Positions 6,075-64,000 of a stretch of 64,000 nt of DNA are shown here, piece after piece. How positions within the stretch are numbered: position 1 is the first letter of the stretch; each line of letters starts with the position of its first letter. The DNA comes from Gluconacetobacter tumulicola. GTDB taxonomy: Bacteria > Pseudomonadota > Alphaproteobacteria > Acetobacterales > Acetobacteraceae. The stretch covers positions 248,001-312,000 of the forward strand of contig NZ_JABEQL010000001.1 in NCBI RefSeq assembly GCF_014174215.1, given 5' to 3'. Below the pieces are notes generated by a model. It had not been told where the DNA came from and did no database searches. It worked only from the letters and a program-made list of their open reading frames with translations. A program made the position numbers and the translations under genes.

Positions 6075-6717
6075 CCGGCCGCATCCGCATAAACCAGGCC
6101 GGGCCGGCCGCCGCCGCGTCCTGCTGCGTCTGCACTGCGGGCAGCACGGTATCGTCTCCGGGCATCCACCCCTCGGGTGTCAGCACGTCGTCCGCCGTCA
6201 CCCTCTGCAACGCCGTCACCAGCCGCAGCAATTCCGCCACCGAGCGACCCACCGACATCGGATACCAGACGACGGCACGGATCACCCCCTCAGGGTCGAT
6301 CGCATGCACAGCCCGCACCGTGGCACTGCTCTCCGCCGTCTCGTCCAGCATGCCATAGGCCCGGGCGATCGCCATCGACGGGTCCTCGATGATCGGAAAA
6401 GGGATCGTCACCCCGAACTGGGCGCGAATGGCCTCGACCCACGCCAGATGCGCGGACAGGCTGTCCACCGACAGGCCCAGCAGGGCGCAGTTCATCGCCC
6501 GGAACCGGTCGGAAGCCGCCGCGAAGGCCAGGAACTCACTGGTGCAGACCGGCGTGAAATCCGCCGGGTGCGAAAACAGCAGCACCCACCGTCCACGCAG
6601 ATCGCTCAGGCGCAGACGGCCCTGCGTGGTCCGGGCACTGAAATCCGGCGCCACATCCCCAATCTTGGGTGCAACGCCCGGCAAACCGGCACGGGACGGA
6701 GAAACAGGATCGCTCAT
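6061..6717 (-). CDS. 1-Cys peroxiredoxin (Prx6/AhpC-TSA family)
   Basis: Thiol peroxidase that reduces peroxides, and possibly polysulfides in this setting. The conserved block SHPADFTPVCTSEF carries the peroxidatic Cys; the C-terminal half has the long Prx6-type extension ending near WMPGDD. There is no second conserved resolving cysteine, hence 1-Cys class. The frame stays open to an ATG at 6765 lying 20 bp from the operator palindrome; ATGs at 6729 and 6717 fit family length better. None has a good ribosome-binding site, so the start is uncertain. The downstream ArsR gene overlaps its end by 14 bp. It is divergent from the ETHE1-like gene across a shared control region, implying co-regulation. 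Confidence 0.87.
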   Translation of the reverse strand: MSDPVSPSRAGLPGVAPKIGDVAPDFSARTTQGRLRLSDLRGRWVLLFSHPADFTPVCTSEFLAFAAASDRFRAMNCALLGLSVDSLSAHLAWVEAIRAQFGVTIPFPIIEDPSMAIARAYGMLDETAESSATVRAVHAIDPEGVIRAVVWYPMSVGRSVAELLRLVTALQRVTADDVLTPEGWMPGDDTVLPAVQTQQDAAAAGPAWFMRMRPDDAA

Positions 6718-59503: not shown

Positions 59504-60394
59504 TCAGATTTCATACTCGATGGCCGGCAGGCTCTGATCCATGGTCAGCGATGGCAGGCCCCTGTGCGGCGCACCGACGACCCGCGCCGGATTGCCCACG
59601 ACGGTCGTGAACGGGGCAACGGGCTTGAGCACGATCGACCCGGCACCGACTTTCGCCCCCTCGCCGATCTCGATATTGCCCAGCACCTTGGCCCCGGTTC
59701 CGATCAGCGCCCCCCGCCGCACCTTGGGATGCCGGTCGCCGGCCTCCTTGCCGGTCCCACCCAGCGTGACGTTCTGCAACAGGGCGACATCATCCTCGAT
59801 CACCGCGGTTTCGCCCACCACGATGCCGGTTCCGTGGTCGAACATGACCCGCTGCCCCAGTTGCGCGGCAGGATGAATATCCACGGCGAACATTTCCGAC
59901 GCCCGACCCTGGATATAATGTGCCAGCGGGCGGCGGTTTTCCTGCCACAGCCAATGCGCGACCCGATAGGACTGGATCGCATGAAAACCCTTGAAGAACA
60001 GGAACGGGACCAGCAGCCCGCTGGCGGCCGGATCGCGCTCGCGGATCGACGCCAGATCGGCAACGGCCATATCGACCGCCTGCGGATGACCGATCTGGAA
60101 ATCCCTGATCAATGCGAAGACACTTGCCTTGCGCATCAGATCGTTGCTGAGCTTGCGCGACAGTAGATAAGCCAGCGCGGTCGCTAAATCCGGCTGATCG
60201 AGAATGCTCGGCCGGGTCAGGTCCCGTAGAACCGGGTCACGGTGTGCCCGGGCTTCGCCCCGAATCAATTCCCACAGCCCGGCGGGCGAGACCGACGGGG
60301 CCACGGCACCGATCGCCGCCGCATCCACCCCGCCCCGTTCGAAATAGGCACGCAGGCTGGTGACGTCCGCGTCCATCCTCTGTTCCAGTCCCAT
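59504..60394 (-). CDS. cysE: Serine O-acetyltransferase
   Basis: 296-residue enzyme making O-acetylserine from serine and acetyl-CoA, the first step of cysteine synthesis. N-terminal helical domain with SILDQPDLATALAYLLSRKLS; left-handed beta-helix with hexapeptide repeats containing the catalytic His-Asp region FDHGTGIVVGETAVI, TLGGTGKEAGDRHPKV and GAKVGAGSIVLKPV. The ATG at 60394 is preferred, since further upstream codons overlap a hairpin ending the groEL transcript. C-terminal tail lacks the usual inhibitory Ile at the very end in classical form but ends YEI. Confidence 0.93.
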   Translation of the reverse strand: MGLEQRMDADVTSLRAYFERGGVDAAAIGAVAPSVSPAGLWELIRGEARAHRDPVLRDLTRPSILDQPDLATALAYLLSRKLSNDLMRKASVFALIRDFQIGHPQAVDMAVADLASIRERDPAASGLLVPFLFFKGFHAIQSYRVAHWLWQENRRPLAHYIQGRASEMFAVDIHPAAQLGQRVMFDHGTGIVVGETAVIEDDVALLQNVTLGGTGKEAGDRHPKVRRGALIGTGAKVLGNIEIGEGAKVGAGSIVLKPVAPFTTVVGNPARVVGAPHRGLPSLTMDQSLPAIEYEI

Positions 60395-60410
60395 CCCCGA
60401 AGACGAAAGG

Positions 60411-60442
60411 GATCGCGTCCGCCCGAGCGGGCGAACGCGATC
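60411..60442 (-). terminator. Hairpin after groEL
   Basis: 15-bp stem (GATCGCGTCCGCCCG, two-base loop, complement with one G-T pair) between the groEL stop (60454) and the cysE start. Only a weak T tract (CCCTTTCG) follows on the minus strand, so efficiency is uncertain. Confidence 0.6.
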
Positions 60443-60453
60443 CTCCGTTTTCG

Positions 60454-62097
<1,644 letters not shown>

Positions 62098-62397
62098 TCA
62101 GCGCGTGTCGGCAATAATGCCGAACAGGTCCGATTCCTTGACGATCAGAAGATCCTCACCGTCGATCTTCACTTCCGTACCCGACCATTTTCCGAACAGG
62201 ACGCGATCGCCCTCATGGACGCCCGGCGGCACCACCTGTCCCCGCTCATCCCGCACGCCCGGTCCCACCGCCACAACGATGGCCTCGACCGGCTTTTCCT
62301 GCGCCGAATCCGGAATAATGATACCGCCCACCGTCCGTTCGGCAGGGGTGATACGCCGCAGGACCACCCGGTCATGCAGAGGACGAAATCCACTCAT
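62098..62397 (-). CDS. groES: Co-chaperonin GroES
   Basis: 99-residue lid of the chaperonin. Typical [33 protein letters not shown] mobile loop and [33 protein letters not shown], ending ESDLFGII. Partner of the adjacent GroEL. Confidence 0.95.
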
Positions 62398-62439: not shown

Positions 62440-62649
62440 TTACCGCGCCAGTGTCAGGCTGTCCGCGTGGGCGCGGCGGAACTGCCACAGGACCTGTCGC
62501 GTCAGTTCGTCCGGCTCAGCCAGGACACGGTTATGGAGAAGGCGCACGCTCTCATGCGCTGCGTAGAAGCGCCGCGTCTTGCGGTCAGCCTCCACAATCA
62601 GCGCCCCCAGAAACGTGCCTTCGATTTCGACGATCCGTGATTCAAACAT
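62440..62649 (-). CDS. Small conserved-looking protein upstream of groES
   Basis: 69 residues, beginning MFESRIVEIEGTFLGALIVE and ending RAHADSLTLAR, mixed charged/hydrophobic composition of a folded cytoplasmic protein. It is the first gene of the groESL operon, 42 bp upstream of groES and downstream of the promoter at 62848-62875. No family is recognised with certainty. Ribosome-binding site is weak (AAGGCAGCAGG). Confidence 0.6.
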   Translation of the reverse strand: MFESRIVEIEGTFLGALIVEADRKTRRFYAAHESVRLLHNRVLAEPDELTRQVLWQFRRAHADSLTLAR

Positions 62650-62875: not shown

Positions 62876-63176
62876 GATTAAAACGTCATATGATCGTATT
62901 ATTAATCATATTACGATTATCAACGTTATTAGTGCGTAGATCGTAACGTAAATCCATTCATATAATTGTTTTAATTATGTTTTTTTCATAGAACCCCCTT
63001 AAAGGTCCGGCTCGCACGGCGCGTTGCCTTACGGGTCAGGCCGGGATGCCTGCGCCAGACGCATCACGAACGCCGTCTATAATACCAATTTGCACGTTGA
63101 ATGTTCCATATAACGATATAAGATCGTTATCGAGCGCCCCAGCAGAGCGGGGCCTGGTTGGAAGGGTACCAACATC
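62876..63176. promoter_or_regulatory. AT-rich divergent control region with repeated ATCGTA/ATCGTT half-sites
   Basis: 301-bp non-coding region between the groESL operon and the tandem peroxiredoxins. ATCGTA at 62893 and TACGAT at 62912 form an inverted pair; another ATCGTA lies at 62940. Closer to the peroxiredoxin start there is a perfect 8-bp repeat, ATAACGAT (63110-63117) and ATCGTTAT (63123-63130), with a 5-bp spacer. The recurring half-site suggests a dimeric regulator serving both directions. GGTTGGAAGGG (about 63157-63167) is near the start. Confidence 0.5.
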
Positions 63177-63809
63177 ATGAGCATTCATCTCGGCGACATC
63201 GCGCCTGATTTCGAGCAGGAGACGACCATCGGTCGCATCCGCTTCCATGAATGGCTGGGGGATTCATGGGGCATCCTGTTCAGCCACCCGAAGGATTTCA
63301 CCCCTGTCTGCACCACCGAACTGGGGGCCGTCGCGAAACTCGCCCCGGAATGGGCGAAGCGCAACACCAAGGTCATCGGCCTGTCCGTCGATCCGGTCGG
63401 CAGTCATGCCGAGTGGGCAGCCGATATCGCCGACACCCAGGGGGCCACGGTCAATTTTCCGATCATCGCCGACGCCGACGGAAAAGTCGCGGCGCTCTAC
63501 GACATGATCCACCCGGCAGCGGACCCCAAGGTCACCGTCCGGACGGTCTTCATCATCGACCCCGCAAAGAAGGTCCGGCTGACTTTGACCTACCCGCCCT
63601 CGGCCGGCCGCAATTTCAATGAGATCCTGCGCGTGCTGGACAGCCTGCAACTGACAGACCGCCACAAGGTGACAACGCCCGCCAACTGGCAGGAAGGCGA
63701 CGACGTGATCATCGCCCCCTCGGTCAGCGACGAGCAGGCCCGCGCCCTCTTCCCCAATGGCTGGAAGACGCTGCGTCCCTATCTGCGTCTGGTTGCGCAG
63801 CCACGCTGA
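63177..63809 (+). CDS. 1-Cys peroxiredoxin (Prx6 family)
   Basis: 210-residue peroxidase. The single cysteine of the protein is the peroxidatic Cys47 in SHPKDFTPVCTTELGAV. The C-terminal extension TTPANWQEGDDVIIAPSVSDEQARALFPNGW marks the Prx6 class. It has close resemblance to the peroxiredoxin at 6061-6717 but is a separate paralogue. A second peroxiredoxin-like gene follows 15 bases after its stop. Confidence 0.95.
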   Translation: MSIHLGDIAPDFEQETTIGRIRFHEWLGDSWGILFSHPKDFTPVCTTELGAVAKLAPEWAKRNTKVIGLSVDPVGSHAEWAADIADTQGATVNFPIIADADGKVAALYDMIHPAADPKVTVRTVFIIDPAKKVRLTLTYPPSAGRNFNEILRVLDSLQLTDRHKVTTPANWQEGDDVIIAPSVSDEQARALFPNGWKTLRPYLRLVAQPR

Positions 63810-63824
63810 AAAGGAGAATTCACT

Positions 63825-64000
63825 ATGGCGCTGTTCCCAGGATGGCAGGCCCCTGATTTCGCGGCGGAGACGAATGCGGGCCCGATTCATTTCCATACAT
63901 GGCTGCAAGGAAGCTGGGGCATCGTCATCACGCATCCGGCCGATTACGATCTGGATAGCCTGCGCCGCGCCGTCGCATGGGCACTTGCGCGTACACAGCC
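63825..64000 (+). CDS. Peroxiredoxin-like protein without peroxidatic cysteine, 3' end outside window
   Basis: Starts ATG with AAGGAG at 63811-63816, 15 bases after the preceding peroxiredoxin. The 58 visible codons begin MALFPGWQAPDFAAETNAG and align with the first peroxiredoxin (HFHTWLQGSWGIVITHPADY versus its FHEWLGDSWGILFSHPKDF). Where the partner has TPVCTTEL the sequence continues DLDSLRRAV, so the catalytic Thr and Cys are missing. It is a degenerate or regulatory peroxiredoxin; the remainder is outside the window. Confidence 0.85.
   Translation, partial: MALFPGWQAPDFAAETNAGPIHFHTWLQGSWGIVITHPADYDLDSLRRAVAWALARTQ

Follow-up and report, generated by a model that had tools for sequence, protein, structure and literature searches.

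Tandem genes at the window edge

The window, a stretch of 64,000 nt from Gluconacetobacter tumulicola (G000, bases 248001-312000 of the 322601-base contig C1), closes within a pair of genes on the same strand, here called A and B. Gene A (63177-63809, + strand) encodes a 210-aa 1-Cys peroxiredoxin of the Prx6 subfamily. Both domains of LsfA-like proteins were detected by Pfam (AhpC-TSA, PF00578, E 9.2e-31; 1-cysPrx_C, PF10417, E 1.5e-12), and the protein carries the PVCTTE motif together with the Thr and Arg of the triad, as in LsfA-like 1-Cys Prx6 enzymes. Matches to Pseudomonas aeruginosa LsfA, human PRDX6 and yeast PRX1 extend over nearly its full length, and LsfA (6p0w, 7kuu) is the nearest solved structure by sequence. 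According to extracts of PMC4199769, lsfA owes its name to induction when sulfate is low, a response that it shares with an organosulfur ABC transporter and whose mechanism is unexplained; strong induction by sulfur starvation is also reported in extracts of PMC12581299. The window encodes a second Prx6-like peroxiredoxin with a PVCT motif (6076-6666, - strand), 41% identical to gene A. Proteins like it (37-42% identical to A) were present in 24 of the 25 genomes with B, among the matches listed, and it is a possible alternative partner of gene B. An ordinary peroxiredoxin related to both genes also occurs on a plasmid of Rhizobium sp. BG4 (L119:8001-8627), where metB (cystathionine gamma-synthase) follows directly as a sulfur neighbour.

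Gene B begins with an ATG at 63825, 15 nt past the stop codon of A, and its first 176 nt lie inside the window (63825-64000, + strand). A Shine-Dalgarno-like GGAG (63813-63816, + strand) was read from the sequence 8 nt before the ATG. The contig continues beyond the window (L009, C1:308500-322000), and there the frame is complete (L009:3326-3811), with 161 codons and a stop at what would be 64308-64310, its last base 310 bases beyond the edge. The protein is 49 residues shorter than A, lacks PF10417, ends in RAA and contains no Cys and four Met among its 161 aa. BLASTP aligned A and B at 32% identity over 163 columns (E 1e-22), a likeness that is not due to chance and that bears out an earlier note on this DNA, which had taken B for a paralogue of A with TPVCT replaced by DLDSL. 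The replacement was confirmed by the alignment, in which DFTPVCTTE of A stands opposite DYDLDSLRR of B, Thr giving way to Asp and Cys to Ser. A shifted peroxidatic cysteine or an early stop past the window edge, either of which that note had considered damaging to its proposal, was ruled out by reading the full frame: there is no Cys anywhere and no stop close to the edge. Pfam AhpC-TSA scored the window copy at 16.4 bits, under the cut-off of 26, and Pfam and NCBIfam returned weak peroxiredoxin matches to gene B and no others.

A perfect 8+5+8 inverted repeat, ATAACGAT-ATAAG-ATCGTTAT (63110-63130, + strand), lies upstream, with 46 nt between the repeat and the ATG of A. It is operator-like, and 0.04 matches would be expected in the window at up to three mismatches. 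The repeat was found at the same place in four relatives, identical in G003 and G005 and with one mismatch between the arms in G001 and G006, and was partly recognisable in G007, G008 and G004. Situated near the likely A-B promoter, it looks like the site of a regulator. No link between this palindrome and other A genes was found, the ACGA...TCGT form being absent upstream of 13 of 13 A genes from other genera. On the - strand lie a 69-aa protein divergent from A-B (62443-62649), with no Pfam or NCBIfam match, then GroES (62098-62397), GroEL (60454-62082) and a CysE-like serine acetyltransferase (59504-60457), these three being named from sequence reading, not from the family scan. Past B in the same genome, two TonB-dependent receptors, a GGDEF protein and a phospholipase C-like protein, named in the same way, are encoded on the other strand (L009:3982-13499).

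A clade without the peroxidatic cysteine

A profile built from 19 B proteins (A2) recovered 27 B copies in 25 genomes when 397 genomes from the family of the window (Acetobacteraceae, by named matches) were searched with it. The scores were bimodal among the matches listed, with the B copies at 178 bits or more and other matches at 133 bits or less. The copies are spread over four genera, comprising 12 of the 14 genomes of the window's genus (g1), nine genomes of g76, three of g89 and one of g42; two copies each were found in G005 and G006. The 27 are not independent, as those of G004 and G012 are identical and those of G011 and G013 nearly so. Named matches were Gluconacetobacter aggeris, G. 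asukensis, G. takamatsuzukensis and G. liquefaciens, Komagataeibacter rhaeticus and two K. saccharivorans plasmids. At E 1e-38 the same profile retrieved only the window's own B from 385 class and 398 phylum genomes, sets that had drawn few family members and in which a distant B could score below the line. A tblastn search of plasmids with B matched 184 records, mostly annotated peroxiredoxins among the matches listed. The gene is easily overlooked: two Komagataeibacter plasmid records annotate it as 'hypothetical protein', and the window copy falls under the Pfam cut-off.

When 57 proteins were placed in a quick maximum-likelihood tree, B occupied one side of a branch (SH-aLRT 100) and was nested among Prx6 genes. 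Its attachment to the A genes of that genus has a support of only 80-88 and lies on a long branch, a situation in which, by the program's own warning, the join may be spurious. By its fold, its nearest relatives and this tree, B belongs by descent to the Prx6/LsfA subfamily, with a weak exact joining point. Like LsfA, PRDX6 and PRX1, it has FHxW, HPxD[YF], TIRxT and the Phe of GRNF in the core of its N-terminal fold; unlike them, it has no peroxidatic Cys and mostly no motif Thr or Glu; the window copy has no C-terminal domain, and a C-terminal Ala-Ala and Gly96 are invariant.

The position of the peroxidatic Cys is occupied by Ser in 19 copies, Thr in four, Gly in two, and Asp and Val in one each, and by Cys in none of the 27. 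Working peroxiredoxins carry a PxxxT/SxxC motif that includes the peroxidatic Cys (extracts of PMC6466579), and this motif is missing from gene B. The catalytic Thr site holds Thr in 7/27 and Ser in 7/27, the Glu of PVCTTE was retained in a single copy of 27, and the catalytic Arg site holds Arg in seven copies and His in 20. Other positions are nearly fixed: the His (26/27) and Asp (27/27) of HPxD, Trp31 (27/27) and Arg125 (26/27). The Gly96 is specific to B (23/23 non-redundant proteins), with Met in 28/28 A proteins, and the C-terminal Ala-Ala was found in 27/27 B copies vs 6/149 other mechanically called ORFs of at least 150 aa. A clade-wide replacement Cys was sought across the 27 copies; the fullest column, near the C-terminus, reached 13/27, and the window copy has none. 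By its sequence B is thus unable to be a Cys-based peroxidase, and it is almost certainly not a peroxidase.

The retained positions might also be read as the site of a new enzyme, such as a hydrolase, an isomerase or a thiol transferase, working in the old pocket through the His, the Asp and the His/Arg. His37, Asp40, Trp26, Trp31, Arg125 and Gly96 are each kept in at least 22 of the 23 non-redundant B proteins, and the associated genes include metabolic ones. Against this, there is no clade-wide Ser or Cys nucleophile (the best Cys column stays at 13/27, the Prx6 phospholipase Ser at 10/27), and the Pfam and NCBIfam matches are weak and of peroxiredoxin type only, which leaves a new catalytic activity quite unlikely. 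The phospholipase A2 triad of human PRDX6 is His26/Ser32/Asp140, with Gly at the Ser site in some Prx6 proteins (extracts of PMC6466579). The equivalent residues in B are His in 25/27, Ser in 10/27 and Asp in 18/27 and 13/27 at A positions 128 and 130, and an intact Prx6 phospholipase A2 site was accordingly rejected.

The low sulfur content of the window copy, with no Cys and four Met in 161 aa, and the sulfur genes near several copies would be consistent with a structural or filler protein that spares sulfur under starvation and has no specific partner. However, the number of Cys per B protein ranges from 0 to 5 among copies of 156-174 aa, so that Cys avoidance is no clade-wide rule, and specific residues are invariant; such a role is very improbable.

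All 27 copies are intact open frames. In pairwise comparisons among the window's genome and four relatives, dN/dS of B was 0.19-0.21 in the seven pairs with dS >0.5, and that of A in the same pairs 0.03-0.07; the three closest B pairs gave 0.25-0.48 on few changes. B is under purifying selection (dN/dS ~0.2), and the earlier note's view that it is no decayed gene held up. A functionless by-product of duplication in the course of decay would fit with the faster evolution of B than A, with the higher ratios of the three closest pairs and, in the window's genus, with the absence of B from G007 and its reduction to a remnant in G010. Set against the ratio of ~0.2 in the seven better pairs, the intact frames, the invariant residues and C-terminus and the presence in four genera, this explanation is barely credible, and pseudogene status was rejected on dN/dS, frames and conserved residues. 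The G010 remnant is the last part of B alone, beside foreign sequence (L024:1501-1746, L088:6066-6263); no A orthologue was found in that genome, and A and B may have been lost jointly.

An AlphaFold model of B (161 aa) had a mean pLDDT of 78.6 and a pTM of 0.77, with residues 99-109 and 153-161 mostly below pLDDT 50. Its best matches in the PDB were yeast PRX1, LsfA and PRDX6, at moderate TM-scores (0.57-0.65 in the best ten). The same fold without the catalytic Cys is also known from engineered proteins, Arenicola Prx6 C45S (2v2g) and ApPrx 0Cys (6krs), both by their PDB titles, and extracts of PMC6617597 describe a triple-Cys mutant of Teladorsagia Prx1, another engineered Cys-less form. 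Those proteins are active enzymes mutated in the laboratory; the B clade arose naturally and has lost neighbouring active-site residues as well. In the open-access full texts searched, seen as extracts, we found no description of a natural Cys-less pseudo-peroxiredoxin clade. We regard B as a clade of pseudoenzymes within a fold family that is already known.

Partners and gene neighbourhoods

The earlier note had proposed that B, as an inactive partner, forms mixed oligomers with A, and a check of other genomes showed the tandem A-B pair in ten. A orthologues were searched in 27 genomes, the true ones being 88-100% identical; they were present in 11, of which ten also carry B and the eleventh, G007, is a member of the window's genus that has A and no B. 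None was found in the 15 other B genomes (G011, G013, G054, G101, G162, G210, G215, G251, G304, G325, G345, G360, G385, G396 and G407), where the best match to A was 37-41% identical, or 36% in G013, an 87% complete genome whose close relative G011 is a single contig. With no A orthologue seen in 15 of the 25 genomes that carry B, mixed oligomers with A are not the general answer, and the role of partner of A was rejected as the general function of B. A non-catalytic subunit that tunes or protects active A in mixed dimers or oligomers would be consistent with the tandem pairs, 15 nt apart in the window, with core residues common to both proteins, such as Phe138 and Arg125, and with the partner-activating inactive paralogues known in other enzymes, for example the prozyme described in extracts of PMC5201418. 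Apart from the missing orthologues, however, B has no C-terminal domain, its dN/dS is roughly four times as high as the ratio for A, the gene most often found downstream of it encodes a serine hydrolase, and several copies have sulfur genes nearby; we consider this arrangement unlikely. What stands of the proposal is that B is intact, selected and, by its residues, a non-peroxidase, and A-B contact is possible in the ten genomes having both.

Inactive paralogues kept by selection are also known in the trypanosomatid AdoMetDC prozyme and the deoxyhypusine synthase paralogue, as far as the extracted texts describe them, and like these B lies beside an active gene in ten genomes. Prozyme-type paralogues activate their partner, whereas activation of A by B would be speculative and most B genomes show no A orthologue. 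Another peroxiredoxin, 37-41% identical to A, is kept in 14 of the 15 B genomes without an A orthologue, so that a switched partner for B is possible. The roles of 'sensor' and 'binding scaffold', which the earlier note had also put forward, are possible and close to the reading preferred below.

The serine hydrolase gene lies downstream of B on the same strand in 18/27 loci, directly or after one recognised gene. It was typed by Pfam on one representative as PF06821, which we take to be the RBBP9/YdeN-type serine hydrolase family, and elsewhere by tblastn to that representative. The nine loci without it downstream are the five of the window's group and those of G304, G360, G054 and G162, and in G162 it lies on the far side of B, pointing away. 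Of 394 family genomes, 46 gave a hydrolase match, and B is present in 21 of these and absent from 25; four B genomes had none (G000, G003, G054 and G360), and in G001 and G304 the gene is elsewhere in the genome, away from B. The window's genome has no PF06821 gene, and the hydrolase is thus no obligate partner of B there. In a control, the hydrolase was not seen at 33 peroxiredoxin loci without B (~1.5 kb each side). Ten hydrolase loci with no B neighbour were examined, and in one of them (G369) the gene is directly 3' of an active A gene without B, showing that the hydrolase can adjoin A as well as B. Relatives of the 69-aa protein were found at 22/27 B loci and at 6/10 hydrolase loci without B, divergent from A, B or the hydrolase, with the exception of G162, where the gene runs in the same direction as B.

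MetQ, MetN and MetI share the gene row of B in G004, G011, G013, G054 and G210, and the G012 locus is cut after MetQ; the NlpA/MetQ assignment was made by Pfam on one representative. The fullest row, in G004, reads A - B - hydrolase - MetQ - MetN - MetI. Of the two K. saccharivorans plasmids, the one that was read carries B - alpha/beta hydrolase - MetQ/NlpA - ABC ATPase - methionine permease. Beyond the permease, the opposite strand encodes a nitroreductase and a sulfate ABC transporter. Rrf2-like, methylthioribose kinase-like and monooxygenase-like genes accompany B in G215, G101 and the shorter G251 contig, the Rrf2 gene of G101 being typed by Pfam. In G215 (L084), a monooxygenase ~3 kb past B passes the NCBIfam cut-off for alkanesulfonate monooxygenase (SsuD-like), the kinase between them passes that for MTRK, and a MetA-like protein is under the cut-offs. 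In K. rhaeticus (L046), a monooxygenase on the other strand passes the NCBIfam cut-off for NtaA/DmoA. MetQNI or typed sulfur enzymes were found near B at a minority of loci.

Two other families recur around B. An ATP-grasp-like protein, with weak similarity to RimK and cyanophycin synthetase, comes right after B in four loci (L089:4717-5817, L074:7645-8673, L075:6083-7144 and L078:7100-8122), and in G001 a protein of this kind lies beside the hydrolase, away from B (L134). A small protein family (c6) with no Pfam or NCBIfam match occurs near B in seven loci (e.g., L073:6572-6934 and L089:4004-4453).

A putative role in sulfur limitation

Gene context and descent, given the sulfur induction of lsfA, point at sulfur limitation, and B likely belongs to the physiology of sulfur acquisition or sulfur limitation. 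Sulfur-limitation gene sets contain MetQNI, SsuD or NtaA/DmoA monooxygenases, and such genes are present at several B loci. Kept in relatives, and in several of them beside sulfur-scavenging genes, B probably has a new, non-antioxidant job. Our best explanation, about as likely as not, is that B descends from an LsfA-like protein and now serves a sulfur-limitation operon as a non-redox accessory protein, for binding or as an adaptor. An LsfA-like 1-Cys Prx6 gene would have been copied in an ancestor of some acetic acid bacteria, and the copy would have kept the peroxiredoxin fold core with the His and Asp of HPxD, while losing the C-terminal domain and, from PVCTTE, the peroxidatic Cys in every case, the Thr in most and the Glu in nearly all. 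It would then have joined a sulfur-limitation operon whose fullest order places it between A and the RBBP9-type serine hydrolase, ahead of MetQ, MetN and MetI. The A-B pair of the window may be a shortened form of this longer operon, as the window's genome contains no gene of the hydrolase family and its MetQNI genes lie on a separate contig.

On this explanation, what B binds in its former peroxide pocket would most likely be either a small molecule containing sulfur or another protein, for instance the hydrolase, and B would act as an adaptor or sensor; taken by itself, such a mode of action is about as likely as not. Clp-type proteolysis might control the abundance of B by way of the Ala-Ala with which every copy ends. 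The C-terminal end of Caulobacter CtrA is a precedent for a Clp-type degron. Streptomyces ClpP examples in extracts of PMC9775585 illustrate the recognition of a C-terminal AA; we put forward turnover of B by this route tentatively. In the most complete version, the whole B clade would have given up thiol chemistry and would be dedicated, in acetic acid bacteria, to the scavenging of organosulfur compounds: as a sensor or adaptor under proteolytic control, it would detect a sulfur metabolite where peroxide once bound and act on the neighbouring RBBP9-type hydrolase and MetQNI transporter. Taken as a whole, this version is rather unlikely. In the literature searched, no description was found of a peroxiredoxin-derived, cysteine-independent component of sulfur-limitation gene sets.

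A single cysteine defines the peroxiredoxins. The B clade, natural and under selection, has dropped this residue, its helper residues and the C-terminal domain and so offers a clean case of a redox enzyme repurposed, and ten of the genomes examined still carry the active and the inactive state next to each other. The gene context of B also gives a concrete starting point for explaining why 1-Cys peroxiredoxins are linked to low sulfate, a connection reported without a mechanism in the extracts of PMC4199769.
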